The notes beneath the pieces are model-generated. The model did no database searches, had not been told where the DNA came from, and saw nothing but the letters and a program-made list of their open reading frames with translations. Below, piece by piece: positions 18,532 to 49,699 of a stretch of DNA of 64,000 nucleotides. This DNA is from Chlorops oryzae (taxonomy: Eukaryota > Arthropoda > Insecta > Diptera > Chloropidae): contig CM035808.1 in assembly GCA_020466095.1 (NCBI GenBank), forward strand, positions 76,285,633-76,349,632, given 5' to 3'. The translations under genes were made by a program, and so were the position numbers. The stretch's first letter is position 1, and each line of letters starts with the position of its first letter.

Positions 18532-18984
18532 TGTCATAAATAAAGGTGTCATGAATAAATGCAACTAAGGTCAAGCATGCATAAATGCAACTAAACTCAA
18601 AACACAATAAAAAGGGTAAAGAATGCAATGCCCATCAGCAAGCGTAGCGAATCACTGTTTTTTAGTTCTTATCATTTCTCTTTTCCCGCGTGTACGTCTG
18701 AAGTCAGCAATCTAACCCGCTGGTTGATGTTTTGCTCGATACATGTCAAGAACAACATATGTGCGCTTGGCACTTAAGATCAAATGACCGTTGCATTCTT
18801 CGAATGTGTAGAAACGTATGTTACATTCTATATAAATACTGGAAATAAATTGTAAGAAACGATAGTCAATGATATGGACTCCTCTAGTTGGCACCACCAG
18901 TGTTAACCAACATAGCTGGACAAATAAACCAAATAAAAATTAACAATAAACATAACTAAAGCCTTTTAATTTATATCTATTAAA
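18532..18984 (+). repeat. 5' LTR of 412/mdg1-like element
   Basis: Begins TGTCATAAATAAAGG and ends CTATTAAA just before the PBS. It contains a TATA box (CTATATAAATA at 18828-18838) followed by AATAAA signals near 18930-18950. Confidence 0.9.
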
Positions 18985-19000
18985 TGGCGATCCTTGCCAG
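18985..19000 (+). promoter_or_regulatory. Primer binding site
   Basis: TGGCGATCCTTGCC directly follows the LTR. It resembles the TGGCGACCG-type site of 412/mdg1 elements, with differences. Confidence 0.6.
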
Positions 19001-19099
19001 TTCGTGCAAATGATAAATTTTCGCGAATGTTAAGTTAAAAGGACACGGAAATTTATAAATAAATAAATAAAAAGGACGTTTGGTGTAAACCATTGCAAA

Positions 19100-19219
19100 A
19101 TGGATCCCGTCGAAAAAGAGATCCTAAAACATTTTGGAACTGCATTAAAAAGTGAAATTATAGTGAAAACAGGACCTATATACACAAAGCAACAAATAAT
19201 AAAAATACTTAAAAGCTAA
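19100..19219 (+). CDS. Leader ORF 1, 39 aa
   Basis: ATG at 19100 (context CAAAATGG) to TAA at 19217. The peptide starts MDPVEKEILKHFG, is rich in Lys and Ile, and is too short to assign. It lies between the PBS and gag. Short leader ORFs are reported for 412/mdg1-type elements (recalled), so it may affect gag translation. Confidence 0.4.
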   Translation: MDPVEKEILKHFGTALKSEIIVKTGPIYTKQQIIKILKS

Positions 19220-19471
19220 AGACTAGAAAAGTATACAAAAAAAAAAAAAAAAAATAAAACAAAAACAAAAAAAAAATATATATATATACAAAAAGAACAA
19301 TTTTAAACAAAAGGCTATGCTTGTTGGAAGAAGACACATCAACCGGTGACTGCACAACGTTGGATCAACAGCTTAAACAACAACAGAAACATCAGCAGCG
19401 GCACAGCAACAAAAAAAAAAAAGAAACCAAAGCTAAGTTACATCTAAAACTATTATATTATATTTTTTTTC

Positions 19472-19699
19472 ATGAATCAAGCAGTATACTATTTAACAAT
19501 GTTTGAAAAAAATACAAAAAATGAAAATTCGGGAGCTGTAGTAAACGAAATACTAGCTGGTACACCCGCAGAAATCCCTCTATCAATAGCCATATGTATT
19601 TATATAATAACCTCTTTAGCAATAGTTAACACCCTATACAAAGAATATAAGTTACTGCACAAAAATTTAAAGAAAAAGTATGTAGCACCAAAAATTTAA
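19472..19699 (+). CDS. Leader ORF 2, small membrane protein
   Basis: Seventy-five codons, with an alternative ATG at 19499 that gives 66. It has one predicted membrane segment (PLSIAICIYIITSLAIVNTL) followed by a basic tail, and no recognised domain. It lies upstream of gag in the leader, with poor homopolymer-rich DNA before it. Confidence 0.45.
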   Translation: MNQAVYYLTMFEKNTKNENSGAVVNEILAGTPAEIPLSIAICIYIITSLAIVNTLYKEYKLLHKNLKKKYVAPKI

Positions 19700-19751
19700 A
19701 TAAATAAAATATTGTTGGCATGTAAAGGTGACTGAGTATTAAATCTGTCTT

Positions 19752-20072
19752 ATGAGTGATAGTTGGGAAAATCTTCAAGCACAACTTACTTTAATAAAAG
19801 CAGAATTCGATAGGTCATTCAAATGTATAAATAAACCACAGTTACCTTCCGACGCAACTCAGGCAAAACATTTAAATATTTTAGTTCAACAACACAATTT
19901 ATATGCTGCCACCCTAAAAATATTTTTGCCTTTACTATCAGAAACTCACCAATTTGAAGTGCAAAACGTATTTAAAGGGATAAAAAAAAAATTTAAACAT
20001 ATCTTGCGTAGAGTGGAAATTAGAGACCAGGTCCCGGACGACTTCACAAGTGCCTTTAATTTAAAAATATAA
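19752..20072 (+). CDS. Leader ORF 3, 106 aa
   Basis: Starts MSDSWENLQAQL, is mostly helical and charged in character, and ends before gag in a different frame. It may be an N-terminal Gag-like product of the lineage. I do not recognise a domain. The TAA TAA TAA run after it blocks read-through into gag. Confidence 0.45.
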   Translation: MSDSWENLQAQLTLIKAEFDRSFKCINKPQLPSDATQAKHLNILVQQHNLYAATLKIFLPLLSETHQFEVQNVFKGIKKKFKHILRRVEIRDQVPDDFTSAFNLKI

Positions 20073-20206
20073 TAATAAAATACGAACACAGTAAAACACC
20101 AACTCCAAACTCTGACGACAAAACACCGACACCTTTTGATGAAAATCACCAGCTTCTCCAATTCACATTTCATTTAGACCCCCAAAGACAGCCGAAAGCA
20201 ACCACA

Positions 20207-21175
20207 ATGGATATGACCATCATAGAATTTATCAATACAGCTTCAAAGCTACTACCCTCATATGATAGTTCGGCAGAAATCTTGCAATCCTTTCTAAACG
20301 CATTAGATTTGGTGGATCAGATCAAAGGGACTCATGAGCCGGTCGCTGTCTCATTAATAAAAACCAAAATACAGGGATCTGCTTTGTCTAACATAACAAA
20401 TGAGACGACAATCGCGAGAATAAAAGAAGTCCTAAAAAGCAAAGTAAAAAGGGAATCCGTTGAATCAATATCTGCCAAATTAATGGCGCTTAAACAACAT
20501 AACAAAAATGCGGTTGATTACTCAAAAGAAATTGAGACATTATCGGAAAGATTGAAAGCTGCTTATTTGGCTGACGACATTTCAGTAGAGACGGCCGAAA
20601 AATATGCTGCAAAAGAGGCAGTAAAAGCATAACGTAATAACGCAAGCTCATCTGAAACACGCTTGCTAATGAAAGCAGCCCAATTTGCTAATGTTTCAGA
20701 GGCAATAACAAAATTTGTAGAATTAAGTTCCGAACAGGAAACTTTTTCTATAAATTATATAAGAAATAACGGTCAAAATAGCAACAGAAGCAGAGGAAGG
20801 GGCCACCGGAATTACAATAACGGCAACAACAGTCGTTCTTACTCGAACAATTATAATAACGGCAACAACAGTCATTCTTACTCGAACAATTATAATAACG
20901 GCAACAACAGTCGTTCTTACTCGAACAATTATAATAACGGCAACAACGGTCGTTCTTACTCAAACCATTATAATAACGGCAACAATGGCCGCTCGTACGC
21001 AAACAATGGTTTCTACAATCGGGGTAACGGAAATCAAAATCAAAACTTAAACAGGAATTATGATTATAATCACGGCAATAGCAATAATAACGGTAACATC
21101 AGGGCTATACAAAGCACCTCGGAAAACCAAGAGGGCCCTCAGCAAGCCCAGCTGGGGAGCCCAAGTCAGAAATAA
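20207..21175 (+). pseudogene. gag: gag of 412/mdg1-like element, one nonsense codon
   Basis: Starts MDMTIIEFINTASK at 20207. The frame stops at TAA 20630-20632 and continues in the same frame from 20633 to 21175, so a single nonsense change splits it. The N-terminal half is a helical capsid-like region (KTKIQGSALSNITN and following). The C-terminal half is a basic Asn/Gly/Arg/Tyr domain with five tandem 14-residue units (NNYNNGNNSRSYSN and variants, 20815-21010) that replaces any CCHC zinc knuckle. Such a region presumably binds RNA. Confidence 0.85.
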
Positions 21176-21186
21176 AAACGTTCAAT

Positions 21187-24100
21187 ATGTTGCATATTAA
21201 TCTCAAATTCAGTAACTATGTGACTGTGAAAACATCTTTGAATGGGTCTACGGCTACATTCTTGCTGGATACGGGTTCAGATATTTGCATCATTAAAAAT
21301 AATCGGCTGAATAAAAATGATCTTGACCAATCTAAATTTTTTAACCTATCAGGAATAAGCGAGGGTTTAATCAAAACACAGGGGACACTAACTGCAAACA
21401 TTTTTATAAGCAATTTTGAATTTAACTTTGAATTTCATGCAGTGGAAGAAAATTTTCCGATCCCTTGTGACGGAATTATTGGGTTAAATTTCATAAAATT
21501 CTTCAATTGTGCTCTCGATTACCAAAATTACGGCCCTAGTTGGTTAATTTTACGACCTTATTTCACCAATAGTGATATAGCTATAAAAATTTTGGACTCA
21601 CATGAGCCAAATGTCCTTTTTCTACCAGCTAGGCATGAAGTGATTCAAAAAATAACAATAAAATCCGAAGAAGAAAACATTTTGATTCCAAATCAAGAAC
21701 TAATAGAAGGTGTGTATATTGCAAACACAATAGTAAATTCACAAAGCCCTTACGTTAAAATTATAAACACAAATGACAAGCATTTAAATGTACGACTAAA
21801 TCAAATTGAAACTGAAAGTCTAAATAATTATTGGGTTTTGCAAATAAACCCCGTTAAGGACAATAGCGAGCGGAAACACACTGTACTTTCAAAAATAAAA
21901 AACAATTGCCCCATTCCTTTTCAAGAAAAATTAAAAAATCTATGTTCTGAATATACTGATGTTTTTGGTTTAGAAACCGATATAGGGACTTATAATAATT
22001 TCTATAAACAAAAGTTGCATTTAAAAGATGACACGCCAGTGTACATCAAAAATTACAGAACTCCCCATGAACAAAAACCTGAAATAAACAGGCAAATCAA
22101 TAAAATGCTCAATGATGGAATTATTGAGCCATCGAACTCAGAATATAATTCCCCCATTCTTCTGGTTCCAAAAAAATCACTACCAAACTCCACTGAGAAA
22201 AAATGGAGATTGGTGTACGACTATCGACAAGTCAATAAAAAGCTAGCATCGGATAAATACCCTTTACCCAGAATTGACGATATTCTGGATGAACTTGGTA
22301 GAGCAAAATATTTTTCCTGTCTAGATTTGATAGCCGGTTTTCACCAGATGGAATAAGATGAAGACCCTAGGGACATTACATCCTTTTCAAGTGACCAAGG
22401 CTCTTTCCGCTTTAAGCGACTACCATTTGGCTTAAAAATAGCCCCTAACTCCTTTCAGCGCATGATGAATCTGGCCTTTGCAGGTCTTGGCCCAAACAGA
22501 GCATTCGTTTACATGGATGACTTAATAGTCATCGGATGTTCCGAAAATCATACGCTCAACAATCTAAAATCTGTGTTTGATATTTGTAGAAAAACTAACC
22601 TAAAGCTTAATCCGGATAAATGTAATTTTTTCAATGCAGAAGTTATTTTCCTGGGGCATAAATGCACTGATAAAGGCATTTTGCCGGATGATTCAAAAGC
22701 GGACAAAATCAGAAATTATCCAAAACCAACCAACGCAGATGAAGCCAAAAGATTTATCGCTTTCGTAAATTATTACAAGAGATTTGTCCCAAATTTTTCA
22801 CAACATGCAACACATACCACAAAATTAACACGGAAAAATTTTCCTTTTGTATGGACAAAAGAATGCGAAGATGCGTTTAACTATCTTAAAAACTCCCTAC
22901 TGAGCCCAAAAATTTTGAAATACCCAGACTTCGCAAGACCATTCTGCATAACGACTGACGCCAGCAAAATCGCATGCGGCGCAGTTTTGAGTCAGGAACA
23001 AAACGGCACCCAATTACCCATTGCTTTTGCCTCTCGATCCTTCACTAAAGGTGAGCAAAACAAATCAGTCATAGAGCAAGAGCTTACAGCCATTCATTGG
23101 GCTATAAATTTTTTCAAGCCATACGTATATGGTACAAGGTTTCTAGTTAAAAGTGACCATAAGCCACTCACTTACCTTTTTGCCCTAAAAAACCCCTCAT
23201 CGAAATTAACGGGCATGAGATTAGACTTGGAAGAGTTTGACTTTGATATAGAATATATCAAAGGCAAACACAATTGTGGAGCAGATGCTCTCTCACGAAT
23301 TGATTTTGGGCAAATCAAGGAAATGAATAAGCAAAATGCTACCATATTGAAAGTTACAACACGTTCAAGCACCAAACAAGACTAACCAAAAAGAAACAAA
23401 TATAAATCACCAACAAATAAATAAACCAGTATGCTTACAAGTGTATGAACCATTAACAAATGATGAACTAAAAAAGTTGAAAACCCTTAGTTATTCTAAG
23501 AAAAATAGCGCTATAAAAATAAAACACGGAAAAATAACCGTGAATGAAGTCAACATAAATGACTTGATTGTTAACGAGAAAATCGCTTTAGAGCAATTAT
23601 TCTCGAGACTTGAAAAATTAGTCGGCAATCAAGGGCATAAAAATTTTAAAATTAAACAGAATGATGAGCTCTTTGAATATACAAACAAAAATGACTTCAA
23701 AACTAAGGGTAACCAAATTCTAAAATCGGTAACAATAGCAATCGCGCCCCAATTAAAAACGGTCACTGACATAAACGAACGCCTTCAAATTCTAGAAAAG
23801 TTTCATAATGACCCTGTTTTAGGTGGCCACGCAGGTGTCACGAGATTACTTGCAAAATTACGTAGATATTTCACATGGAAAAATATGTACAAAGACGTAC
23901 GAGCTTATGTCAGGAAATGCGTTGATTGTCTAAGAAACAAATCCTATAACGTCCCAAAAGAACCACTCGTTATAACTCAAACACCTAAGAATTCCTTTGA
24001 TACAGTACAAATCGATACAGTAGGCCCATTACCAAAGCCAAATAGTGGTAATGAATATATCGTCACAATCATATGCGACCTTTCAAAATTCCTAATAGCA

Positions 24101-24804
24101 GCTGCAATTCCCGATAAATCCGCAAAATCCGTTGCCAATGCCATCGTAGAACAGTGCATTCTCCGTTACGGATCTTTCAAAACTGTTCTTACTGATATGG
24201 GCACGGAATATCAAAATCAGGTATTCACAGAAATATGCAATTTACTTAAAATTAAACATAACACTTCCACACCATATCATCATCAAACTCTACTTGGTAC
24301 AGTGGAGAGGAGTCACCGTACGTTCAACGAATACATACGATCATATCTGTCACAAGATCGATCAGACTGGGACGAATGGCTCCAATTTTTCACATACTGC
24401 TACAATACTACTCCATCAACGGTTCATAACTACACCCCTTTTGAATTAGTCTTTGGAAGAACAGCACCCCCTTTTGACTTCACCACGACGAATACAATAG
24501 ACCCACTTTACAATCTAGAGGCATATGATAAGGAATTGAAATATAGGCAAAAAAACGAGCAATAAAACTCATTGAAAAATATAAGCAAAGGAATAAAGAA
24601 AATTTTGACAAAAATGCGACAGCACAAAACATATGTCCAAAAAACTCAGTTAATCTAAAAAATGAAGCAGGTCATAAACTAGAAGGACTGTTTAAAGGCC
24701 CTTATACAGTAATAGAATTAGATCAGCTAGGTAATTGTAAATTAGAATTAAATGGTAAACATACTTTAGTTCATAAAGACAGATTGAAACTAGCACCTAA
24801 ATGA
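21187..24804 (+). pseudogene. pol: pol of 412/mdg1-like element, broken
   Basis: Protease: FLLDTGSDICII near residue 25. RT: KWRLVYDYRQVNKKL, then DLIAGFHQM, a TAA nonsense codon at 22354-22356, and the YMDD box in the same frame at about 22513. RNase H: TTDASKIACGAVLSQ. A frameshift near 23380 moves to the integrase frame (23441-24565), which has the HHCC zinc finger (CVDCLRNK end) and the D, D and E residues (QIDTVGPL, LTDMGTEY, GTVERSH). A second frameshift near 24560 leads to a GPY/F tail (LFKGPYTVIEL) ending at TGA 24802. The element cannot make a full Pol. Confidence 0.9.
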
Positions 24805-25062
24805 TATTTTTCTTATCAATTAGATCTACAAATTAAATCTCATTGCCTTTTAAACACAATAAAATAATGGCTCAAGATATTTATTAAATCTTAATAATAA
24901 GTAAGAATAAAACTACCACTGAATTATTGTATACGATTGAATAAGACTATATAAATAACTATAAATTAATATATAATTTAATATCTATTAAATCTAATAT
25001 CAAAACATTAAGCTTTAGTGAAAAATCTTTAAATTGAGTAGCTAACAATTTAAGAATTTTTC

Positions 25063-25077
25063 AAAAAAGAGGGGAGG
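25063..25077 (+). promoter_or_regulatory. Polypurine tract
   Basis: AAAAAAGAGGGGAGG directly before the 3' LTR, the plus-strand primer for reverse transcription. Confidence 0.8.
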
Positions 25078-25530
25078 TGTCATAAATAAAGGTGTCATGA
25101 ATAAATGCAACTAAGGTCAAGCATGCATAAATGCAACTAAACTCAAAACACAATAAAAAGGGTCAAGAATGCAATGCCCATTAGCAAGCGTAGCGAATCA
25201 CTGTTTTTTAGTTCTTATCATTTCTTTTTTAACGCGTGTACGTCTGAAGTCAGCAATCTAACCCGCTGGTTGATGTTTTGCTCTATACATGTCAAGAACA
25301 ACATATGTGCGCTTGGCACTTAAGATCAAATGACCGTTGCATTCTTTGAAGGTCACCATGTGTAGAAACGTATGTTACATTCGATATAAGTACTGGAAAT
25401 AAATTGTAAGAAAATATAGTCAATGATATGGACTCCTCTAGTTGGCACCACCAGTGTTAACCAACATAGCTGGACAAATAAACCAAATAAAAATTAACAA
25501 TAAACATAACTAAAGCCTTTTAATTTATAT
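25078..25530 (+). repeat. 3' LTR of 412/mdg1-like element (first 445 bp plus TSD of insertion)
   Basis: Matches 18532-18984 with scattered substitutions and an 8 bp insertion (GGTCACCA region near 25351). The TATA box is altered to GATATAAG. It is cut at ATAT (25527-25530) by the insertion of the minus-strand element. The remaining CTATTAAA is at 39499-39506. Confidence 0.9.
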
Positions 25531-26329
25531 TGTTAAAAGGTTTTCCGTGCGTATTCTTGGAAGAAGGATACACCTGAATCCTCTTTTTCATGTAAAAATA
25601 AAAACAAGGACAAACAATAAATTCATTCAAATTCTTTTATTAATTTATAGTCCTCTTGTTTATTTTACATGAATTATTCCTAAGCTAAAACTCCTTCTTA
25701 CACTCGAAATACTTCCTAGTACTAACTAACACTTAAAGTCCACGTTCTAGTCGCTGTTGCCGCTTGATGAGTACAGCCGATTCGAATTGAGACCTTGGAA
25801 ACTAAAATGCAAGTCCTCTTCCAGATATCGATCATTTGCTTATATAGGGAGAAAGTGTCTAGTCTTCACTTTCTCACTGGGATGTCGCAATCTGGAATAC
25901 CGTTGTTGTGTTGCAATACTATTTCGAAATTGACATTTCGCAACCTCTTGTTGTTGTTGACCCATTTTGATGCTTGAATTCAATATGTACGAGTTTGCCG
26001 AAACTGCAACCCTTGCTGTTTTCTTGCTCGTCATTCTCGCTGCCCGCCGTTCTCGCCTGTCGTCGTTCTCACTCTTTGTTGTTCTCGCTGTTCGTCGCTT
26101 TGGCTGTCGTTTACTTCTTTATGCCAACGATCATATTACCTTGCGGCTGTTGGCTTCGCCTTTGAGTTTGTTTGTTGTTGTTGTTCTGGCCTTAAAAGTG
26201 AGCTTGCAGTTTTTTCTCAGCTTTCACTTCAAGGTCTTTGGCTATTTCACTCACAGCTGATTATGTTTTGGTTATGACGGTCGATCAGAGGCGATACAGA
26301 AGGGTTGTGAGTAGAGACGACTCACAACA
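25531..26329 (-). repeat. 3' LTR of Ulp1-bearing gypsy element
   Basis: Identical to 38696-39494 except for about two positions (T/G near 25650 and T/G near 26315). A minus-strand TATA box (CCTATATAAGC) lies at 25838-25848. Confidence 0.95.
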
Positions 26330-26343
26330 TCCCTCCCCCTTTT
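26330..26343 (-). promoter_or_regulatory. Polypurine tract
   Basis: Minus strand reads AAAAGGGGGAGGGA directly next to the 3' LTR. Confidence 0.85.
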
Positions 26344-27239
26344 CATGGAAGTCACGAACATCGTGACGTAGAGAAGATTCGCCAACATCGTGTAGATCTT
26401 ACTTCTGGGCAACTTGGACTTTTGCCCCTGCTTTCGTTATAGAGCCGGTGATGAAAATTTGAGACGATTTTCCTGACTGTCTGAGCTCTGTTGTTACGCA
26501 GGCCTGGTGTTATTCTTGAAATTTGGTTGCAATTGTTACTGGTGCTGAGAAAGAGTGAAGGAAGTTGCGGAGGCAATCGATATATTTGCTGATGTATTCT
26601 GCTGTCGAGATGATAATGCATTGGTATTTGCGGATGCATTCGATGTTGTTGCTGATGCATTTAACTTTGTTGTTGAGATGATAGACCGAAGAATTTTGCA
26701 TTTTTACTAAAGATTAGTCGTTGATTTGGGGCTAAGGCAACTGATCCGGTTGCCCCCTTCCCCCCATACGATGACTGATTTTGTGGGCTTATTAATGTGC
26801 TTTCTTTAGTTGTTATTCGGAGGAAAATGCATACTAAATAGCCCAGTTGACTGTTGTGGAAATATGTTCCCCAAGGATGTGACGGTGTGCCGCATGTTTT
26901 GTATGCCAAATAAACGTCTGTACTGCTGTTGTTGGTGCTGTTATCGTTGATGTGCCTTCGATTTCGCTGACTTATTAGCTTATTTTAACTTATTAAATCT
27001 AAGAATGTTATTCCTCTTAACAGTATTTTCCACCACCTTTTCTTATTGATCTATCTATTTCTATTTCTTATTCTTGTTATTTATTATTCTAATTAATTTT
27101 TTATTTTTTTATTTTTTTATTTTTTTTTTTTTTTTTTTTTTTTTTTTCAATTTTTAAACTTACGTTAGCAAAATGTCAATTTTTTCTTAATTTTAAAGCC
27201 ATGTGTACCAATGATAATTTATTTGAACTCATATTTTGG
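26344..27239 (-). other. Non-coding 3' region of Ulp1-bearing element
   Basis: No conserved ORF. It includes a run of about 29 A on the minus strand (27120-27148) flanked by A/T-rich sequence, and a CAACAACAAC-type low-complexity stretch near 26560-26680 and 26920-26960. Confidence 0.5.
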
Positions 27240-28088
27240 CTATTTTTCGCATTTAGATATTTCGATTTTAAACTTATTTGTGTTATCCATTCTTAGCTTA
27301 ACAATTTTCCCATTAAGTTCTACAGTTCTTGTAATTACAGAGCGTTTGCGTTTTTCTTTTTTTATCGATTTCAGAATTTTATGGAGATATACATTTTCTT
27401 CTAAGCTTAAATCTACCGAGTTTGTGTTATTTTCTTTTAGGCCCCATTTTCTCAGCTGAGTGGCCAAAAATGGTCTTGTTATTCTGCACGTTTTTTCAAA
27501 TATTTCCTTACTGGGTATGCCATTGTTACCTTCTTCTAACGATATTAACATTTGTTCCGCGAATCTAAGTATAAATAACCCGCAATCTACAAAATTGGTT
27601 TGTTGAGGGCAATTAACATATATTGGTTTTAAGTTTTTCGTAAAATTTTTTTCCGTTATGTTACTCAAGATATCAAAAAATTTTTCCATATTTTTTACTA
27701 TTTCGGATGCGTCATGTGGCTTCAGAGAGTCCCAAATGTGCATTTGGTCGTCTCTTATTACCATTAACATCCAGTGGTTGCTCTCGCATACTGGAAATAT
27801 CCAGTTCTCCACCCGTTCCACAACAATGTTTTTTGTTAAGTTTCTTATTCTCGATAGGGCTATTGAATAATCCGCTTTCGCGGCTGCCTTTATTCCCTCG
27901 TAAGTAAATGAACTGCAGATATGTACCTTAGTTTCTATTGTCTTATGTTTCTTCATAAGCCAATTCAAAAAAACATTAATGTGGACATCTGCCAACCACT
28001 GGTTGTTAATGATTCTTTCGTAATCATTATGTGTTATATATGTTGTTCTATTTCCTATTTTATAGGAACAAATGTTTGAAAATGTCAT
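27240..28088 (-). CDS. Ulp1/SENP-like cysteine protease, third ORF of LTR element
   Basis: A 282 aa open frame, ATG at 28088, with an in-frame TAA just upstream. The order and spacing of the C48 (Ulp1) catalytic residues are present: His105 in SNHWMLMV, Asp120 in MHIWDSL, Gln162/163 and Cys169 in CPQQTNFVDCGLFILRF. The WLADVHINVFLNWL region upstream fits the N-terminal part of the Ulp1 fold. Ulp1/SENP enzymes cleave SUMO or related modifiers. The ORF lies where gypsy-type elements have env, between pol and the PPT, in the same orientation. A TTTTCTTTAG acceptor-like site lies about 100 bp upstream, so expression from a spliced RNA is possible. The C-terminal 90 residues are basic and unassigned. 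Capture of a host or DNA-transposon gene is the likely origin. Confidence 0.85.
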   Translation of the reverse strand: MTFSNICSYKIGNRTTYITHNDYERIINNQWLADVHINVFLNWLMKKHKTIETKVHICSSFTYEGIKAAAKADYSIALSRIRNLTKNIVVERVENWIFPVCESNHWMLMVIRDDQMHIWDSLKPHDASEIVKNMEKFFDILSNITEKNFTKNLKPIYVNCPQQTNFVDCGLFILRFAEQMLISLEEGNNGIPSKEIFEKTCRITRPFLATQLRKWGLKENNTNSVDLSLEENVYLHKILKSIKKEKRKRSVITRTVELNGKIVKLRMDNTNKFKIEISKCEK

Positions 28089-28293
28089 TATTAATTAGTA
28101 TTACCCAATGTTCGTCCACGTGCACTGATTTCGATTGTAATGCTCCTTCTTGTTTTTGCCTTCTCCGGTTACCTTCTAAAGAAAACTGAGACGAATATTT
28201 AATATTAATGTGCGAAAAGTTATTACGTTCCCTTTCGTTTACTATCTTTTGCTTTAAAAATTTTTTATTATTTTTTATTAATTGTCAAATTGC

Positions 28294-28400
28294 ATTTTTG
28301 CATATCGAGATTGGCAGGCCAATAAACTTTTTAAATTTTGTATTCGTTTTGTTGAAATGAAAAATTTTTTTAATTTTTTTTTTTTTTTTTTTTCTAAATG
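28294..28400 (-). repeat. Poly(A)-bearing direct repeat, copy 2
   Basis: Similar to 31018-31131: a block containing TTGGCAGGCCAAT (plus strand) followed by a poly(T) run. Once the LOA element is removed, the two copies would lie about 130 bp apart, as a tandem pair. Confidence 0.7.
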
Positions 28401-28418
28401 CCTTGTCATTGTAGTTTT

Positions 28419-30997
28419 ATTATTATTATTATTATTATTATAAGGCTATGAGTGCACCGCGACCTGATAGATCTTTTGTGCAGCCTATGTTCCCTAGAAA
28501 AGATTTAGACTTTTTATGAATCTCAGTGTTTCCAAGGGACTAAATTGGCTGATGGCCCGGGGACCCAAAGTACTTGCCCCTAGACATACAAGTCTACGCC
28601 TAGCCGCCGCCGGGCATGTACATAGTACATGCTCCGCTGTTTCCTGTTCAGCTCCGCACAGCCTACAGATATCTTCGTTTACCACCGCCAGCTTCTTCAG
28701 GTGGTAATTTAATTTACAGTGCCCTGTTAAGAACTCAGTGTAAATCTTAATATTTTTCCTACTGAGGTTAAGAATAGTTTCCGGCCTGATAGTCCTGAGA
28801 TTTATTAGCCTTTTGGCCTGCCGCATGCCTTTGTGGGCTCTCCAGTAGTCCTTTAGGCTATTTTTCTCCCATTTTCTAATCAGGTCATTTTTGAAGCTTA
28901 AATTAACCCCGCAGAAGGGTTCTGGTCCTATGAAGGAATTTGCCGCAGCCCTTTTGGCCAGGCAGTCTGCCCTTTCATTGCCCTCATGTCCCTCATGACC
29001 TGGTATCCAGAAAAGAGTAACTTTGTTCCTCTTGGATAGAGTCTGAAGGAGATTGTAGCATTCATAAACCTGTTTTGAGTTTACTGTGAATGCCATCAAG
29101 GATTTTAAAGCTGCTTGACTATCAGAGAAAATACATATGTTGGAACCAGATGTGTTCCTTCGTATGCATTCTCTAATACACAGCTCTAGGGCGTGGACCT
29201 CCGCCTGAAAAATGGATGATGTTTTTCCCATTGCAGCTGCTTTCTGGAAGTTGGGTCCGACAACCCCAGCCCCTACGCTGCCATCTTCCATTTTGGACCC
29301 GTCAGTGTACCATTTTTGCGAGTCCTCTTCCAATCTTATACTGTTGTTTCTCCACGAGTCGCGGTCACTGATGACTACCTCGTATGTTCTGGAGAAGATG
29401 AATTTTTTGAGCATCTTATCAGATAGCTCCATGCATGGAGTACCCCAGAAGAGATCTAGGGCCTTTATGTGCCCTCTGAGGTTCCCTTCTTTAAGACTGC
29501 TCAAGTTTGGTAGCCTGAGTGCTGCACATGCTGCTTCCCTCTTTATAGCTATATGAAGAGGTATGAGACCTGTGAGCATTCCCAGGCTTGCCGGTGGACA
29601 AGTTCTCATCGCACTTGTCACGCTCAAGCAGGCTACTCTGTGTACCTTATTCAGGATAATCTGAGCCTTAACTTGATCAACTTTTGGCCACCATGCCAAG
29701 GATGCATATGTAATCATTGGCAAGATGACTGTTTTGAAGGACCACGCCATCATTTTTGGTCGTACGCCCCAGGTTTTCCCATACAGCCTTTGACACGCAT
29801 ACGTTGCTCTCAAGGCCTTGTTTGAGACATATGTTATATGCTTGTTCCATGTGAGTGTTTTGTCTAGGATAACACCTAGATATTTCATCTCATCGGAAAG
29901 AGTTAGCACTTCCCCTCCAAGAATTAAAGCTCCAATGTTACGCTTTCGTTTCCTAGTGAAGGGAACTACTGTTGTTTTGGCTGGATTGATTGTAAGTCCT
30001 TTTTCTTGGCACCACTTAGAAGTGATGTCAAGGGCTAGTTGCATGCGATCCGTTATGGTTGAGTCAAATTTGCCTCTAACCACAATTATAAGATCGTCAG
30101 CAAAGCCCTGAACTTCGAATCCGGTTTCATCAAGAATCTGAAGCAGTTCATCGATGACTAATATCCAAAGGAGTGGGGACATTACTCCTCCCTGGGGACA
30201 GCCTTTTGTTGTCCTTACGGTTAGTGTTTTTTCCCCTGACTCATAGACTACTGTTCTCCAGCGGAGCATATCCAGTGTCCATGCAATGATCAATCTTGGA
30301 ATATTTTTCCTGATCATTGCTGCCTCTATGGAATTAAATGACGCATTGTCAAAGGCTCCCTGTATATCAATTGAAGTACAGAGAGCTATTTCTTTACTGT
30401 CCAAAGCCCTTTCGATCTTTGTCGTAAGGCTGTGTATTGCAGTATCAGTGGATTTGCCTGCTTGATAGGCATATTGTTCCGGATGCAGTGGGAATCTCTC
30501 GAGGAAGACTTCCCTGATATACTGATCCAGTATCTTCTCCATTGTTTTGAGAAGAAATGATGTCAGGCTTATTGGTCTAAAAGCCTTGGGCACATGCACC
30601 TCTTGTCTCCCTGGTTTTGGGATGAAGGCTACTCTTGCCCGTGCCCAGTCTTTTGGCACTACGCCTAATTGAAGGCTTGCCCTAAAGATTTTCAACAGGG
30701 TTGGCGCTAATATTTCTATACCTTGCTGCAAAAAGCAAGGCTGAATATTATCAACACCAGCGGATTTAAAGGGACTGAAAGTGGAGATAGCCCATTTAAT
30801 TTTATTTACGGTAATAATTTTACGAGTTAGTGATCGATCTCGCCTGGTCGACACCAAGAATTTTATTTCCTCGGTTGTTTCTGCGTTCTCTTCACATCTA
30901 ACACAGCCCGGAAAGTGTGTGTCCAGCAATAGCTGTCCCGTTTCTTCCAGACTCTCTGTAAATGTACCATCAGCCTTTTTCAAAGTGGAAAGGCCGT
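28419..30997 (-). mobile_element. 5'-truncated LOA/I-type non-LTR retrotransposon
   Basis: Flanked by a perfect 13 bp duplication (TCATTGTAGTTTT at 28406-28418 and 30998-31010). On the minus strand it starts inside the RT region and ends in a (TAA)n tail at 28419-28442. Upstream ORF1 and the endonuclease are missing, as in normal 5' truncation. It lies inside the Ulp1-bearing LTR element. Confidence 0.92.
28494..30997 (-). CDS. Reverse transcriptase-RNase H of LOA-like element, truncated
   Basis: An uninterrupted frame of about 834 codons. RT blocks: VAFIPKPGR, FRPISLTSFLLKTMEK, the SIDIQGAFDN palm motif, KGCPQGGVMSPLLW, and the catalytic GFADDLIIVV. RNase H: WYTDGSKMEDGSVGAGVV, FQAEVHALE, SDSQAALKSL, GNERADCLAKRA. 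A C-terminal CCHC-type finger reads CRLCGAEQETAEHVLCTC. The RNase H domain plus (TAA)n tail point to the LOA/I groups; the RT wording looks LOA-like to me. The apparent start ATG comes from the target-site duplication, not from the element. No stops, so the insertion is young. Confidence 0.9.
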
Positions 30998-31017
30998 TCA
31001 TTGTAGTTTTAAAATTG

Positions 31018-31090
31018 ATTTTATTAATTTTCGAATTGCATTTTTGCGTTTCGAAATTGGCAGGCCAATGAACTTTTTAATTTTTGAAAC

Positions 31091-31128
<38 letters not shown>

Positions 31129-31131
31129 CAA
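31018..31131 (-). repeat. Poly(A)-bearing direct repeat, copy 1
   Basis: Contains a block with TTGGCAGGCCAATGAAC followed by a run of about 40 T (plus strand, 31088-31128). Belongs to the LTR element, just outside the LOA insertion. Confidence 0.7.
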
Positions 31132-32111
31132 TGACTTTCAAACAAAGAAACTGAATGTGTCAATTTTGATTTTGTGCGAGAGCGAATGCTCTCTATTTCT
31201 GGATAAACGGGAGAGACCATGTATTGTTCTTGCTTATTTTATCACAGGCAGTGATCGCTCTTCATGCCTCAAATGTGTGGTTTTGAAATTCTTTGTGCTT
31301 GGAATTTTACTCTTAATCAGCAAAAATGTTTGAGCTGTTAAAAAATATGTATTCAGTTGAGTTGTTGTGGCTTTCAATTATACGCCGTTCGGGAAAAATT
31401 TTATTTAAAGTAGTTGTGTTAATTAAAAATCAATAAAAATTTAGTTGTGCTTTCATATTCTTAGTGAGGAAAAAGTGATTTTACGCATATTCTTCGCGCG
31501 ATTTTGTTTTTATAATTCGAAAAGGTTCATACCAAGCGAATTGTCTGTATTTGAATTTAATTTTCCAGACGATCGCTTGGTAATTTCTTTTGAATTATTT
31601 CATCTTTTATTTTCGTCTATGTGAGGTGAGCGCTGTTGAATTGAACGTGCTACTTTTAAAATTTTGTCTTAATTGTTGTTCTCCTAGGTCCTGCAAATCT
31701 ATTTTCTTTTTGGATTTTATTCATTGTTTGTTCAGGGGTACCAACTGTACCCTTTTTGGTGAGTTGTTCCAATACAACATTAAATTTCCGCAAATATTAA
31801 ATAAATATTTTCCTTAGGTTTTCAGAAATTGTTCAATTACTGGATTGTGCGTAACTATGTATGATTAAATATTTATTTTAGTCGGCTAACCTAATTTAAT
31901 TGTCTACTAACTTTTGTTCTCTCAGAGCAGTGCTTCCGAACCAGTGGGCCATGGTTTTAACCGTGACCAAAATTTGTATCAATAAACTAACCGTAAAAAT
32001 TCCAAAAAAGTGCGGGAGAAAAACTATTTCAATGTATCTTCAACACACAACAATGTTCCGTCAACACATTTGGATCAAACTGATCGCAACAAAAGGTTAA
32101 GAAACGCTGAC
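31132..32111 (-). other. Non-coding spacer after pol in Ulp1-bearing element
   Basis: About 1 kb with no conserved ORF on either strand, between the pol stop codon and the poly(A) repeats. It is unusually long for a gypsy-type element. Confidence 0.5.
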
Positions 32112-35100
32112 TTAGATTGTTGTGCTTTCGATAATTTGCTTTGGATGTTTGTTTTGTTGATCGTTAAATTGTTTTACTAAATTTTTGTGAAAAGTTTTTT
32201 CTTTTCTTTTTATCAACAAACGAACATTTTCTGGCGATGGTGTAGAAATCACTTCATAAGGGCCCTCCCAAATTGGGGAAAATTTATTTTTCCTATTTTG
32301 ATTTTTTAGCCAGACTTTATCACCCTTAGAAAACTTTCGAGAATTGCTTTTTTTGTCATAATATTCTTTTGATTTTTTCTTAGCAGTTTGCTGATTTTTC
32401 CTTACTATTTCGTAACTTCTTTGAATTTGATATTTAAGAATTTTACTGTAATCGTCAACATTGTATAGAGGGGCTGGCTTGTTTTTAAGCTTGATCGGAA
32501 TTTCGAAATCGAAACCAAAAAGTGTTTTACTAGGCGTCTGTTTGGTTGTTGAGTGCACTGTATTATTATGTACGTGCATAGCATGATGAATCCATTCATC
32601 CCAATTCGTACCACCTTCATTTACGAAATTTCGCACATATTCTGCCATTGGACGGTGGGTTCTTTCGAGAGCCCCGTTAGCTTGCGGGTGGTACGGGGAT
32701 GTCTGTGATTTTTTAATGCCCAATATTTTGCAAACTTCTCTAAAAAGGGCGGAAACGAAATTGGTGCCATTGTCAGTTATCAAAACTTTAGGGATGTTAA
32801 ATTTAGAAATTATTTCATTAAAAAATGCTCTTGCTACTGTTGCTGCTTCTGCATCTGGAATTGCCGTGCATATAAAATATTTTGAAAAATCGTCTAAAAA
32901 TGTGAGAATGTATTTGTTGTCCCTTGCCGAGACTGGAAGTGGCCCAACTATGTCCATATATACTTTATCGAAAGGTCTATGAGGTGTGTCTGTAATTGCC
33001 ATTGGCATTTTTTCAATTAAAGAGCTCTTATTCTTTTGACAGAGTTTGCATGCGGCTATGTAGTTTTTAACTTGACGTTGCATGCCCTCCCACTTAAATT
33101 GTTTTCTAATTCGAAAGTATGTTTTCAAAAAACCTTTATGGCCTCCTATGGGTGTGTCATGGAAGATTTTCAAGACGTTTTCTATGTCTTTTGGATCGGT
33201 AAGGACAACTGCCGTGTCTTCATTTTCAAAATTTTCTGAGTCTATCTTTGTTTCGAGTTCTTCTTCTTGAGATTTTGCTTTGGATCGGGTTACAATTGAA
33301 ATTTTATTTTCGGAAATTGGTAGTCTACTTAAGGCATCAGCATTGAGATTACTTTTCCCTGGTTTGTAGCAAATTTCGAAGTCATATTCTAAAAGTTTTA
33401 AACGAAAACGTCCTAGTCTGGTGTCTTGATCTTTTAAATTAGCTATTCCCTTAAGGGGCTTATGGTCCGTATAGATTTTAAAATGTTTGCCTAATAGATA
33501 TGTTCTAAAATTTTTTACTGCCCAAACGATTGCTAAAAACTCTTTCTCTATCGTTGAGTAACGCCTCTCAGTTGCACTAAGGGATCTACTTGCGTAATAT
33601 ATAGGAAGATCTTGCCCTGGTTCCCCTTGAGATAGGACTGCTCCTAGTGCCTCGTTACTAGCATCTGTTGTTAAAATAAAAAGTTTTTCAAAATTGGGAT
33701 ATTGAAGAATTGGGGGACTGGTAACCGCTTTTTTTAGCTGTTCCATGGCTTCTTGACATTCAGGATTCCATTTAAATTTTTCCTCTTTTCTTAATAGTTT
33801 TGTTAAGGGCAACGAAATTTTTGCTGCTTCGGGTATGAATTTTCTATAATAATTTATTAAACCTAGAAATGATTGCAATTCCTTAATATTTTTAGGGGGC
33901 TGTATATTTTTTACGCATTCTACTTTTTCGGGATCTGGTAACACTCCTGCCTCTGAGCATTTATGGCCTAAATAAACTACTTCTCTTTTTAAAAATTGAC
34001 ATTTTTCCGTCTGTAATTTCAAATTATTCGCTCTCAAAACATCTAATACTTTTCTCAGTCGTATTTCGTGTGACTCTAAATTTCTAGCATAAATGACAAT
34101 GTCATCAAGATAAACAAAACAATCAATTCCCTGTAAACCGGTTAGTATGCTATTCATTATGCGCTGAAAAGTCGCTGGCGCTCCTGTCAGCCCGAACGGC
34201 ATTCTGGCAAATTCGAAATGTCCTAACCCGGTACTAAAGGCTGTCTTGGCTCTATCTTTTTTGTCAACCAAAACCTGATGATATCCACTAGCCAAGTCTA
34301 ATGTCGAAAAGTAACGACTACATCCTAACTGGTCCAAAATTTCATCTATTCTGGGAATAGGAAAAACCTGTTTGAGAGTGATTTCGTTCAATTTTCTAAA
34401 ATCGACTACTAGTCTCCATCTTTTCTCACCATCTACTCCTGCCTTTTTGGGGACTAATATGATCGGGGTATTCCAAGGTGATTTGCTTGGAGTGATAATG
34501 CCGTCTTGCAGCATCTTATCTACCTGTGAGTTAATTTCTTTTTTGTGGTGTTCGGGTAATCTATATTGTCTGGTATTAATTGGAGAATGACCTGCTTCGG
34601 TCGGTATTTCGTGTTCTAACACTGTAGTGTAGGAAAGTGGATCTCCTGGCAAATGAAAAACGTCTGAATAATCTTTAAAAATTTTTTGCATTGAAATTTT
34701 TTCCTCTTGATTAAGGGTGTTATCTAGTTTTTTGGTTTCTAACAAGAGGTTATAACGAATATCTGTATTAGTGCATTTATTTAACTGATTAATAGTTGGA
34801 CACTTTAATTCTTGAAAATTTTCTATTGGTTCGTAATCCAATGGTACTTCGCCTAATCTAATAGCCTCATTATTCGTATTTAAAATTGGTATATACCCTT
34901 TTCCATTTATTATCCTAGTCAGTGTGCCTCCTACAAAAACATTTGGCATTATTTCTTTCTTCTGTACGACTACATCCCCTGATAATTCTTCTGCATAAAT
35001 TGCCACTATTCTCTTTTCCCTAGCTTGGACTGTGACTGTTTTCACAATACAAATCCTATTGCTATCGTCGGAAAAAACAAGCGGAAGTGATGCAATTTGT

Positions 35101-36035
35101 TCATTGTTATTGAAAAAGGATATTTCTTTATTGATATTATCAATTACTGACCTATTCCAGAGTTCATCCCTTCCCAGTAAGCCATGTGCTGGAATTTGGC
35201 TTTCTTTTGGTAGCACATGTAACTTAAATTTTAATTCAGGGTTACTGAAGTGTTGAAGGGGAATGGTTCCTATTGTACGAACGTTACCCCCAAAAGCTCC
35301 CGACAATTGTGTGCTTTCGTTCTCATCTATTTCGACATTACTCTTCAATGCTTCCTTTTTTACTAAGCTTGTGTCGGCACCAGTGTCTACTAACAACGTT
35401 ATTTGCTCATTTATAGCTTGTCCACATGGAAATACTATAAACGAGTCATTTAATGCTGAGCTAGCCACCTTGTCATTATTCGCTTGAGTGCGGTACCTGA
35501 ATTTTTTAAGATTTCCACTATATTCTCTGATCCATCTGCCTATCAACAAAGTTTTTTCCCACAAAAATGTGAATAAGAGTAACACAAAAGATAAGATCAA
35601 TTCGATTCTATCTTCGTTTTTATTCTTATTACCTTGAATTTTTGTTTCGGATACAATTTGAGTTTGGTTCGGAGGTACCTTTCTCGCAAAGTTCTTTTCA
35701 ACCAAAACATGCACTAATTGATTATTCTTCGATTCTTTAACTAATGGTTCTTCGCTTTCATAATAATGAACGACGACTTCGTCGTTGAAATTCACTTTCT
35801 TTGAATTTCTTAGTTTCAAGGAAATTTCATCTTTGCTCTCTATCCTTTTTATTTTCTTCTTAATAATCTGGTTGTTAAGGTCATCTAAGAAGATTTTATT
35901 TATGTCAAGTTCCTTGAACTCTTCTTGGGGGTTTTTTAATTTAACTACTTTTTCTCCTTTTTCTTTAAGTTCATATGGTTTATCTATTTCTTCTTCCCCC
36001 GGAACTATACTTGGCCTATGAGTTTTCGAATTCAT
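32112..36035 (-). CDS. pol: Pol polyprotein of Ulp1-bearing gypsy element
   Basis: 1307 aa, open throughout. An unusual N-terminal extension (residues 1-205) is charged and holds one hydrophobic segment at about 144-158 (IELILSFVLLLFTFLW), likely membrane-spanning. Aspartic protease: LLVDTGADTS at 215-224. RT: KRWRLVVDFRKLNE near 538, YLDD at 642-645. RNase H: TTDASNEALGAV from 789. Integrase: His959, His966, Cys996, Cys999 zinc site; Asp1028, Asp1088 (ITDNGTNF) and Glu1124 (GALERTHRP). GPY/F-like IWEGPYEVI near the C-terminus. The ATG at 36035 lies 15 bp after the gag stop codon and in another frame, so a frameshift or reinitiation is needed. RT type and PBS fit the 17.6/gypsy branch. Confidence 0.95.
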   Translation of the reverse strand: MNSKTHRPSIVPGEEEIDKPYELKEKGEKVVKLKNPQEEFKELDINKIFLDDLNNQIIKKKIKRIESKDEISLKLRNSKKVNFNDEVVVHYYESEEPLVKESKNNQLVHVLVEKNFARKVPPNQTQIVSETKIQGNKNKNEDRIELILSFVLLLFTFLWEKTLLIGRWIREYSGNLKKFRYRTQANNDKVASSALNDSFIVFPCGQAINEQITLLVDTGADTSLVKKEALKSNVEIDENESTQLSGAFGGNVRTIGTIPLQHFSNPELKFKLHVLPKESQIPAHGLLGRDELWNRSVIDNINKEISFFNNNEQIASLPLVFSDDSNRICIVKTVTVQAREKRIVAIYAEELSGDVVVQKKEIMPNVFVGGTLTRIINGKGYIPILNTNNEAIRLGEVPLDYEPIENFQELKCPTINQLNKCTNTDIRYNLLLETKKLDNTLNQEEKISMQKIFKDYSDVFHLPGDPLSYTTVLEHEIPTEAGHSPINTRQYRLPEHHKKEINSQVDKMLQDGIITPSKSPWNTPIILVPKKAGVDGEKRWRLVVDFRKLNEITLKQVFPIPRIDEILDQLGCSRYFSTLDLASGYHQVLVDKKDRAKTAFSTGLGHFEFARMPFGLTGAPATFQRIMNSILTGLQGIDCFVYLDDIVIYARNLESHEIRLRKVLDVLRANNLKLQTEKCQFLKREVVYLGHKCSEAGVLPDPEKVECVKNIQPPKNIKELQSFLGLINYYRKFIPEAAKISLPLTKLLRKEEKFKWNPECQEAMEQLKKAVTSPPILQYPNFEKLFILTTDASNEALGAVLSQGEPGQDLPIYYASRSLSATERRYSTIEKEFLAIVWAVKNFRTYLLGKHFKIYTDHKPLKGIANLKDQDTRLGRFRLKLLEYDFEICYKPGKSNLNADALSRLPISENKISIVTRSKAKSQEEELETKIDSENFENEDTAVVLTDPKDIENVLKIFHDTPIGGHKGFLKTYFRIRKQFKWEGMQRQVKNYIAACKLCQKNKSSLIEKMPMAITDTPHRPFDKVYMDIVGPLPVSARDNKYILTFLDDFSKYFICTAIPDAEAATVARAFFNEIISKFNIPKVLITDNGTNFVSALFREVCKILGIKKSQTSPYHPQANGALERTHRPMAEYVRNFVNEGGTNWDEWIHHAMHVHNNTVHSTTKQTPSKTLFGFDFEIPIKLKNKPAPLYNVDDYSKILKYQIQRSYEIVRKNQQTAKKKSKEYYDKKSNSRKFSKGDKVWLKNQNRKNKFSPIWEGPYEVISTPSPENVRLLIKRKEKTFHKNLVKQFNDQQNKHPKQIIESTTI

Positions 36036-36049
36036 TTTGGCTTTCCGGT

Positions 36050-38101
36050 CTATTGGCCTTGACCGGGCCGCATCGAGTTTCCCTGGCTCCTATTTTCCTG
36101 GGGTGCACTATTACAATACCGTGCTATGTGACCGAAATTTGAGCATTTGAAACATTGCATCCCTTTTGGCTGACTATTATTTGTCATATTCTCTCTAGGT
36201 TGACTACTCGAATTTTGCGCTCTCCCAGGAGTATTTCCATTGTTGTTATAATTTTGAGATTGGTTATTATTTTGTGTTCTAAACGGGTTGAAATTTAGAT
36301 TTTGCATACTATTTTGTGGTTCAAAAGGATGATTTGGAGCATGATGGTAACTTTGTGTTCTAAAACCGCTTTCAATATTCCCTGTACCAGGCTGCTGATC
36401 CTGTTGAGCATTCAAAATTGGTTTACAAAATTTATTGGATTCATGTCCTCGTGTTTTGCATATATTGCAGAATATGTTTTTTAATCGACTGAAACAGTTT
36501 TTTTCTAAATGACCTCGTTTGTTGCAATGTGTGCAGGTCACGGGGTCACTTCTAGGTTCTATACTTTTTCGACCACAATTTGCTGTTTGTTCGTGCCCAT
36601 ATTCGAAGCAAATATTGCAATAAGGAGTATTTCTCCTGAGTTGGCAAACATCTCTAGTATGACCCACAATATTGCAAAAAGAGCAGGGAATTGTTTGAAA
36701 TTGGGCTGGTTGATTTATGAAGTTATTTGCATGAAATTGTCTACTATTGCAATGACGATCTTCTGCATCTTCGGCTATTTTTACTAAAAACGATAGCGGT
36801 TTATCTAAATGTCCTTCGAGGCGGAGTTGCATATATTTATCTTTTAGTCCAAAAATAAATTTATTTTTTGCCATATTTCGGTACTCGCTAAGTGCTGATA
36901 CTGCCTCAGACTCGTTCCAGGACGCTTTAATCATTCGTTCCGCTTCATTCAGTAAAACTTCTATCCTTCGCCCAAATTCTGAGGCCATTTCATTTGCATG
37001 CTCTACGGTGCTTTCCATTTCTGCCCTTATCACTTCTAAGCTTTTCTGTTTTAGGAATTGTTTTTTAATGAAATTCCCCAATTCATCTACGCTCCCGAAC
37101 ACTAGCTCATTTGTTTTTATAAACGCCTCTCCTGACAGTCGTTGTTTTACGCACTTTATCAGTTCGCTAGGAGCTATATTTTGTGAAATGCTTTTAAGAA
37201 GTTCTAGTCCTGTGACGAACTTCGCTACCTCTGACCTTAATTCTAGCCTATTTTCGCCTGAAAAGCAAGGCACTAAACTCACTACTTTCTTCATTACTTC
37301 ATCTGCGGGAGGTGGAATTGCCATTGTGACTGTTAAAGTAGGAACTATTGGTGTTTGATTATTCTTTTCCTGATTTAGCCTGTTTTCTGTATTTACCCCT
37401 ACTGAAATATTGTTTTTCGCGGGGGTTGGAAGCAGTCTTAAAAAGGTTGGATTATTTTGAAGGAGTATTTTTGGACTATTTGTATGCTCAATAATTACTT
37501 TTTCGTTATTAATTGAACTATTTTCTTTATTTGTGTCTCCTAGTGAACTTGTAGGCGGGGGTGGAGCGGGTTTTGGACTCGTTTTGCTGCTGCTGTGTGT
37601 GTTCCTAAATTCCCTTTTGAAATTTTCTATTTCTTCTTTCAGCCACCTTATTTCTTCCTCTCGCTCTCTAAGGGTTTCCTTGTCTCTCTCGACCTGGTCT
37701 GCTAGCTTTTCCCCTGCTGCGTTACTTAATGCTTTTTTAAGATCCTCGTTTCTCTTATCGGACTCCTCAATTAATAACCTGCTCGCGTCAATTTGGTTCT
37801 TTAATTTTTTGCGGTCTTTTTTTAGGCAGTTTATTGTTTCTTCTAATTGTTGCACTTTTTTCTTATATGTCTCGCTCTGCTTACTCAATGGACCTCTTAC
37901 TTTGTCTATAAGGAAGGATGCCTCCCCAAGTTTCGAAAATTGGCCTAACACTATTTGATCTTTAATTAACTGCGAAACTTCTCGCCCTAAATCTGCTTCT
38001 TTAAGTAATTCTCTTGCTGTCTCTAAAACTACTGCAGTATCGATTTCTGATTGTTTAATTGTTTGTCTAAGTGCTTCCAATTCTCCCTCCATATGACTCA
38101 A
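36050..38101 (-). CDS. gag: Gag with long coiled coil and five zinc knuckles
   Basis: 683 aa, open. Residues about 75-165 are strongly coiled-coil (Lys/Glu heptads, e.g. KKVQQLEETINCLKKDRKKL), followed by a Pro/Ser-rich linker. The middle region (about 270-440) is the capsid-like domain. The C-terminal part has five CCHC-type clusters in a row: CSFCNIVGHTRDVC, CNICFEYGHEQTANC, CTHCNKRGHLEKNC, CNICKTRGHESNKFC (two with 5-residue last spacing), then after an Asn/Gln-rich stretch CFKCSNFGHIARYC. Most gypsy Gags have one or two such knuckles. Gag forms the particle and binds the RNA genome. Confidence 0.95.
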   Translation of the reverse strand: MSHMEGELEALRQTIKQSEIDTAVVLETARELLKEADLGREVSQLIKDQIVLGQFSKLGEASFLIDKVRGPLSKQSETYKKKVQQLEETINCLKKDRKKLKNQIDASRLLIEESDKRNEDLKKALSNAAGEKLADQVERDKETLREREEEIRWLKEEIENFKREFRNTHSSSKTSPKPAPPPPTSSLGDTNKENSSINNEKVIIEHTNSPKILLQNNPTFLRLLPTPAKNNISVGVNTENRLNQEKNNQTPIVPTLTVTMAIPPPADEVMKKVVSLVPCFSGENRLELRSEVAKFVTGLELLKSISQNIAPSELIKCVKQRLSGEAFIKTNELVFGSVDELGNFIKKQFLKQKSLEVIRAEMESTVEHANEMASEFGRRIEVLLNEAERMIKASWNESEAVSALSEYRNMAKNKFIFGLKDKYMQLRLEGHLDKPLSFLVKIAEDAEDRHCNSRQFHANNFINQPAQFQTIPCSFCNIVGHTRDVCQLRRNTPYCNICFEYGHEQTANCGRKSIEPRSDPVTCTHCNKRGHLEKNCFSRLKNIFCNICKTRGHESNKFCKPILNAQQDQQPGTGNIESGFRTQSYHHAPNHPFEPQNSMQNLNFNPFRTQNNNQSQNYNNNGNTPGRAQNSSSQPRENMTNNSQPKGMQCFKCSNFGHIARYCNSAPQENRSQGNSMRPGQGQ

Positions 38102-38680
38102 TAAAATACGGATTTACTCCGTTCATTGTTCATTGCAAATAACAAAAAAAAATTTTCATTCGCATCTAAGTACACCAAATGCCAGCCTACTCAATCGAAA
38201 ATAACAAAAATAAGCAAACAGTAATACAACTCTTCGCACATAAATTTAAATTCACGTACTCACCATGTTTTGTTTTGTTCTGCTTTTCTTTAATTTCTGG
38301 GTCTGCTTTGTTTATTTGTTTGTGTTTATTTAAAGAAATTTGTTGAACTTTTTGTTTGTGCGAATGTTTGAAACTCAACTTATTTAATTAAATTACTCTC
38401 TCAACCACAAATAGCTTCTTCATCAAAATATTGACAAACTGTTTGTAACAATTTATCCGTCAATATTTAATGTTCTTTGGTCATCACAACTTTTACAAGG
38501 TAGCCTTACGAAAAATTTTATTAGACTGGGCGGTTATGACGCATCAACTTTTAAAACCGAAACCAGTTCCGCTTCAGTTTATTTTTTTTTTTTTTTTCGC
38601 AATTCACCCTACAAAATGTTGAAACAGTCCTTATGAAACTATTTATCGTGTAGATTCGAATCCAACTATGAATAGTTGAA

Positions 38681-38694
38681 TACCGGCTGCGCCA
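38681..38694 (-). promoter_or_regulatory. Primer binding site
   Basis: Minus strand TGGCGCAGCCGGTA, one base after the 5' LTR. It resembles the tRNA-Ser site used by 17.6/297-type elements. Confidence 0.75.
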
Positions 38695-38695
38695 A

Positions 38696-45780: not shown

Positions 45781-45859
45781 TTGTGGGCGTGGCTCACGGA
45801 GGGCGGCGTCCATCTTTTTCCAGGATATGTGCCTTTTTGTATTTTACCAGTACACCAAA

Positions 45860-49690: not shown

Positions 49691-49699
49691 TCTTTGATG

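Follow-up and report, generated by a model that had tools for sequence, protein, structure and literature searches.

A Ty3/gypsy lineage of endogenous retroviruses (ERVs) in Chlorops oryzae has a C48 (Ulp1/SENP-type) protease as a resident gene. It is the last gene of the lineage, located between env and the 3' LTR, and it is kept by purifying selection. The gene order observed is gag-pol-(PTP)-env-C48, where the tyrosine phosphatase (PTP) is present in part of the lineage. We analyzed a stretch of 64,000 nucleotides (the window), which holds one copy, together with further copies from the same genome. The interpretation given in an earlier note, made from the letters of the window, is partly supported.

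The protease gene of the window copy encodes 282 amino acids (27240-28088, minus strand). It was assigned by Pfam, PDB alignment and predicted fold. The earlier note had read it as an uninterrupted 282-codon ORF with the catalytic residues of a C48 protease, and this description is upheld. The ORF matches Peptidase_C48 (PF02902) with an E value of 6.6e-13 (49.4 bits; cut-off 20.7). At E ≤0.1 it has PDB matches to 17 distinct sequences, every one named a SUMO protease, with SENP2 at the top (2.9e-8). The residues H105, D120, Q162/Q163 and C169 line up with SENP2, so the His-Asp-Cys triad and the oxyanion glutamine are present. The predicted fold is SENP-like. The protein has W31 and W106, and a basic cluster occupies residues 243-249.

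The stop-free run of this frame is 284 codons, a length not reached on either strand of 2000 sequences simulated from the region with a Markov-1 model, where the longest run was 221. Its codon usage correlates at 0.75 with pol and at 0.44-0.59 with four other ORFs, a weak link because pol also correlates at 0.71 with the pol of a BEL element. The codon-position GC pattern is flatter in C48 than in gag and pol. A candidate splice donor (ATG/GTGAGT, 38262-38263) upstream of gag and a candidate acceptor (TTTTCTTTAG/AAGG, 28176), both predicted on the minus strand, could give a spliced C48 mRNA from donor 38263 to acceptor 28176.

The gene lies within a provirus-like element of 13,964 bp, nested insert included (25531-39494, minus strand), delimited by an LTR pair and the target site duplication (TSD) ATAT. 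The 5' LTR (38696-39494, minus strand, TG...CA ends) and the 3' LTR (25531-26329, minus strand) have 799 bp each. They present 2 mismatches over 799 bp, so the element is young, as the earlier note had concluded. A PBS-like sequence, TGGCGCAGCCGG (38683-38694, minus strand), is separated from the 5' LTR by a single base on the inner side. The polypurine tract AAAAGGGGGAGGGA adjoins the 3' LTR (26330-26343, minus strand). The gag gene has 683 codons from a TTG, with the first ATG three codons later (36050-38101, minus strand). CCHC-like motifs were seen in it by eye, and no Pfam match above the cut-off was found in it. The pol gene encodes 1307 amino acids (32112-36035, minus strand), in which Pfam gives the order PR-RT-RH-IN and no phosphatase domain. 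Its open frame extends from 36089 and is in the -1 register with respect to gag, and the two open frames overlap by 40 bases. The LTR ends, TSD, PBS-like sequence, polypurine tract and Pol order are those of Ty3/gypsy. The open gag and pol frames and C48 are all on one strand, with C48 before the polypurine tract, as previously noted.

A 5'-truncated non-LTR retrotransposon with RT, RNase H and a (TAA)n tail is nested between pol and C48 (28420-30997, minus strand; Pfam and TSDs). It is flanked by 14-bp TSDs at 28406-28419 and 30998-31011, and it is not among the element's own genes. Its empty site was found in copies L029 and L036, where the 14-base target word occurs once with the flanks of the window. 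C48 is outside these TSDs, which rules out an Ulp1 gene of the NeSL/Utopia non-LTR type. An Ulp1 DNA transposon (Ginger1, MULE) was also ruled out, since neither flanking inverted repeats of ≥14 nor a transposase ORF was found beside C48. A tandem repeat of 68 bp at 90% has its first copy at 31019-31086 and its second upstream of C48 at 28273-28340 (both minus strand; the period is 154 bp once the nested insert is taken out). An ATTGA-n match of 32 bases (31132 and 27151) was rejected as a TSD because of its low complexity.

The target of the insertion was the 3' LTR of a further Ty3/gypsy element (18532-25530, plus strand), and the uninterrupted target site TTTATATCTATTAAA is visible in its left LTR. 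The LTRs of that element are 96% identical, and its gag-side ORF has 39-bp tandem repeats. The window also contains a BEL/Pao element (45853-55947, minus strand) with a Baculo_F-type env ORF (48252-49385, 8.4e-38). One of its LTRs is split by about 1.2 kb, around half of which is an 8-bp minisatellite. An inverted repeat of 1594 bp (3833-5426 and 5554-7147, 99% complementary, 127-bp spacer) overlaps a PIF1-like helicase ORF; it is either a palindrome or an assembly fold-back. Nested inverted repeats are present at 15093-16171 (91-94% complementary, about 1.1 kb in total). Finally, two minus-strand ORFs of 171 and 251 amino acids (57317-58741) had no Pfam match.

The protease has at least 139 matches in its own genome (442 Mb, 1044 contigs), with identities from 99% down to 36-37%. 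This is a lower bound, as 138 of 831 candidates were scored. About 60 of the listed matches span at least 240 of the 282 residues without a stop. We took 20 places, each with 4.2 kb of upstream and 1.8 kb of downstream sequence. They were picked to span the identity range, and the far ones are mostly open copies. Pol, env or the LTR accompany C48 at these places, and in 16 of them pol precedes C48 on its strand. The earlier note had asked whether other copies always have the ORF; its company is confirmed, for copies located via C48, with C48-less copies outside the count. The gene has the same place in other copies.

In the near subfamily (L029-L036), C48 is 72-99% identical to that of the window. 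Pol is upstream on the same strand in seven of these eight copies, and the LTR of the window element follows C48 in all eight. Three of them (L029, L032, L036) have env between pol and C48. Two env-bearing near copies were checked at the 5' end. Their 799-bp LTR pairs are identical in one case and identical save a one-base gap in the other, and their TSDs are CATC and GGAG. One of these two copies, L036, has a broken C48 frame. In the far subfamilies (L037-L048), C48 is 36-50% identical. Here 9/12 copies have pol, at 68-82% identity in seven of them and at less in L037 and L041. Env and the phosphatase were each found in 9/12 copies, and phosphatase, env and C48 together in 8/12.

Over all fetched copies, env is present between pol and C48 in 12 of 20. 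The earlier note had placed C48 as the third gene where env usually stands. Its position between pol and the polypurine tract holds for the window, but env precedes C48 in those 12 copies, so a replacement of env by C48 was rejected. All four env ORFs scanned are above the Baculo_F cut-off (24.1). Three of 465-473 amino acids reach 29.0 to 34.9 bits, and one scanned ORF is additionally near the Gypsy env model. A furin-like R-x-K-R-GLINAIGTA site is found in three of the four.

The tyrosine phosphatase is located behind the integrase in nine of the 20 copies (L039, L040, L042-L048), and eight copies have phosphatase, env and C48 together. Four ORFs match Y_phosphatase of Pfam at 6.6e-51 to 1.4e-64, with weaker matches in partial ORFs. 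The HCX5R signature is present in all four phosphatases checked. The phosphatase reads on from the integrase in L039, L043 and L048, and has its own frame in L044 and L047.

The window copy is a derivative in which about 2.4 kb with env was deleted. L029 and L036 hold env in about 2.4 kb of extra sequence at the point where the window has an A-tract (31101-31126, minus strand), and tblastn gave no env match in the flanking segments of the window. No phosphatase match was found in these segments either, and their remaining element-strand ORFs have at most 102 amino acids. Likewise, L030, L031 and L035 have one common junction that removes env, and they keep C48. The 3' flanks of L030 and L035 differ; therefore this env-less form, with its C48, seems to have multiplied.

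We estimated selection with a model of a single dN/dS and a kappa of 1. The dN/dS of C48 is 0.186 (15 open copies, 258 gap-free codons), a value that the sampling of open copies, which favors intact genes, does not produce alone. With dN/dS set to 1, the log-likelihood falls by 210 units, from -5920.0 to -6129.7. It means that the purifying selection suggested as a check in the earlier note is present. The env genes have a dN/dS of 0.095 (7 open copies, 451 codons; -5369.3 to -5758.4 at dN/dS 1). Close C48 pairs range from 0.16 to 1.61, with few changes each. In comparisons of far subfamilies, dN is 0.42-0.64 and the synonymous sites are mostly at saturation. The residues H105, W106, D120, D168, C169, W31 and D34 are invariant in the 15 C48 copies. 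Q163 is conserved in 14 of them, and L039 has glutamate. C48 changes fastest of the three genes compared (C48, env and pol). L029 and L044 are 43.6% identical in C48 and 65.1% in env, and the pols of L044 and the window share 70-78% identity.

Relatives outside this genome were also found. A protein collection has one full-length homologue of C48 (P0001, 29% identical over 96%) on a 931-bp contig. It keeps all the catalytic residues and not W31. A homologue in the moth Eumeta japonica covers 46%, with the alignment broken at the active site, and there are two further weaker matches. NCBIfam gave no match for the window protease, P0001 or P0002. A genome contig collection yielded 20 loci, of which the best is 33% identical; these loci were left out of the analysis. 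The viral contig collection had no match for C48 or pol.

Among the pol matches listed (120 of 3480), Pfam annotation shows two with a tyrosine phosphatase, two with an ubiquitin-specific protease, one with a G-patch and none with a fused C48. One listed match has a herpes-tegument-like domain below the cut-off (19.1 vs 25). P0022, P0122, P0021 and P0025, in which an ubiquitin-specific protease, the herpes-tegument-like domain or the G-patch is inserted in pol, are more distant Ty3/gypsy pols. In P0006 and P0012, the phosphatase is fused behind the integrase. These two phosphatases share 41% identity with each other and 35-39% with the one of L044. A tree that combines the window pol with 60 of the 120 listed puts P0006 and P0012 in the clade sister to the window pol (99/96 for the five rows). 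For all enzyme labels taken together, label shuffles show no clustering on this tree (as low in 56 of 200). A C-terminal extension of more than 60 amino acids is present in three of 117 measured relatives (P0006, P0012 and the long fused P0035). A spacer of more than 100 amino acids between RH and IN is found in 40 of the 120 listed, 26 of which cluster together, and the Pfam annotation of the 40 has no PF02902. Named pol matches, among those listed, come from ants, a termite, a firefly, a braconid wasp, a pseudoscorpion, coffee, two fishes, a choanoflagellate and a Flavobacterium MAG.

The piRNA-guided silencing of retroelements uses SUMO. We consider it somewhat better than an even bet that C48 is a host-directed protease for SUMO or a related modifier, selected as the last gene of an env-bearing Ty3/gypsy lineage and helping the element against SUMO-dependent repression or defence. 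The gene would probably be expressed from a spliced mRNA. Its cysteine protease would most likely remove SUMO or a related modifier from host proteins. The loss of SUMO conjugates could weaken the SUMO-dependent repression of the LTR, or a SUMO-dependent defence, and the element would benefit. We take C48 to act on host conjugates because selection keeps it, in part of the copies in the absence of env, because it evolves quickly away from the active site, and because its family is of the SENP type. This reading as a whole, more than the proposed function itself, gains a little support from the copies found in the same genome and from the refutation of C48 as a passenger. Parts of two papers give it background. 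In yeast, less SUMOylation leads to more Ty1 transcription (PMC8585004, section 8), and in flies, Su(var)2-10 is proposed as a link between Piwi and SetDB1 (PMC7272611).

The same host-directed protease might have a different target. As the element infects or spreads, it could act on the defence signalling of the host, in immune or stress pathways that SUMO, NEDD8 or ubiquitin regulate, and not on LTR chromatin, with the phosphatase of related copies as its partner. We give this perhaps one chance in a few. The phosphatase occurs in 9/20 copies, and therefore there is room for a role in signalling. It stands together with env and C48 in 8/20, and env implies an infectious past or present. However, the three copies with the common env deletion retain C48, and the window's own subfamily has C48 without the phosphatase.

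It is rather improbable that C48 strips modifiers from the element's own integrase or Gag, tuning stability, nuclear entry or integration. The ubiquitin-specific proteases within the pol of the distant relatives P0022 and P0122 agree with such a use. On the other hand, C48 is a separate ORF, and psi-K-x-E sites are not above shuffled sequences (three in gag, mean 2.0; three in pol, mean 5.7).

The capsids of some DNA viruses are matured by C48-clan proteases. The earlier note had suggested that C48 matures Gag. It would then resemble adenain, poxvirus I7L and the asfarvirus proteases, and I7L does appear low in the fold-match list of C48. Nevertheless, this is disfavoured, and we regard it as very unlikely. 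The pol already has an aspartyl protease domain, and neither GG nor AG-A/S/T nor an adenain-type site occurs in the window Gag. GG is also absent in the partial gag of L037 and occurs once in the gag of L041. The window pol has four GG and two adenain-pattern matches. Finally, that C48 is a chance passenger or decaying gene of a single copy, or intact merely through the youth of this copy, has next to no probability: an A-tract 88 bp past its stop would agree with it, and it is refuted by the matches (at least 139), the common place in other copies and the dN/dS of 0.186.

The lineage resembles the env-bearing insect Ty3/gypsy elements of the errantivirus type (gypsy and kin) in its gag-pol-env provirus and Baculo_F env. 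It differs from them in the C48 behind env and, partly, the tyrosine phosphatase behind the integrase. Neither Ulp1 nor SUMO nor a phosphatase turned up in a term search through the portions covered of three insect ERV papers (PMC12992720, PMC13172572, PMC6085415), and those of PMC5408684, PMC6338049, PMC7264820, PMC3286476 and PMC11952523 gave no relevant passage. In the open-licence literature, outside Repbase and among the matches listed, neither C48 nor a tyrosine phosphatase was found in an LTR element, in agreement with the earlier note, which knew of no such gypsy element. Ulp1 is found there, among the matches listed, in DNA transposons and non-LTR elements.

Passages of several papers describe partial parallels. 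Orchid Ty3/gypsy elements also have an extra ORF for a modification-removing enzyme, an m6A RNA demethylase proposed as an answer to host surveillance (PMC9289625). However, that enzyme acts on RNA in a plant host, and here it is a protein-modifier protease. The planarian giant gypsy Burro has extra domains tied to ubiquitin-like systems, a SUMO-like domain included, but they are within a giant Gag polyprotein and C48 is not named in the relevant passages (PMC6431247). NeSL/Utopia are likewise retroelements with an Ulp1-like protease, although non-LTR and with the Ulp1 domain N-terminal in their RT protein (PMC4640811). Ginger1 combines a gypsy-type integrase with an Ulp1 (or OTU) domain; in contrast, it is a cut-and-paste DNA element with TIRs and the Ulp1 is fused to the transposase (PMC2836005). 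The KIU genes of plant Vandal/MULE elements couple Ulp1 with anti-silencing genes, as accessory Ulp1 genes tied to the escape from silencing. Nevertheless, these are DNA transposons, and the part of the text covered assigns no role to their Ulp1 portion (PMC13317346).

Part of the lineage has two candidate modification erasers at once, a tyrosine phosphatase behind the integrase and a SUMO/ubiquitin-like protease behind env. The order of these genes is an observation. That they may form a counter-defence kit against silencing and immune signalling is a proposal, which we hold tentatively and at somewhat less than even chance. These results show that Ty3/gypsy proviruses can have accessory genes beyond gag, pol and env. 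As a lineage with a SENP-type protease of its own, joined in part by a tyrosine phosphatase, it offers a direct candidate for counter-defence in animal ERVs. Whether ERVs fight SUMO-dependent silencing thereby becomes a testable question.
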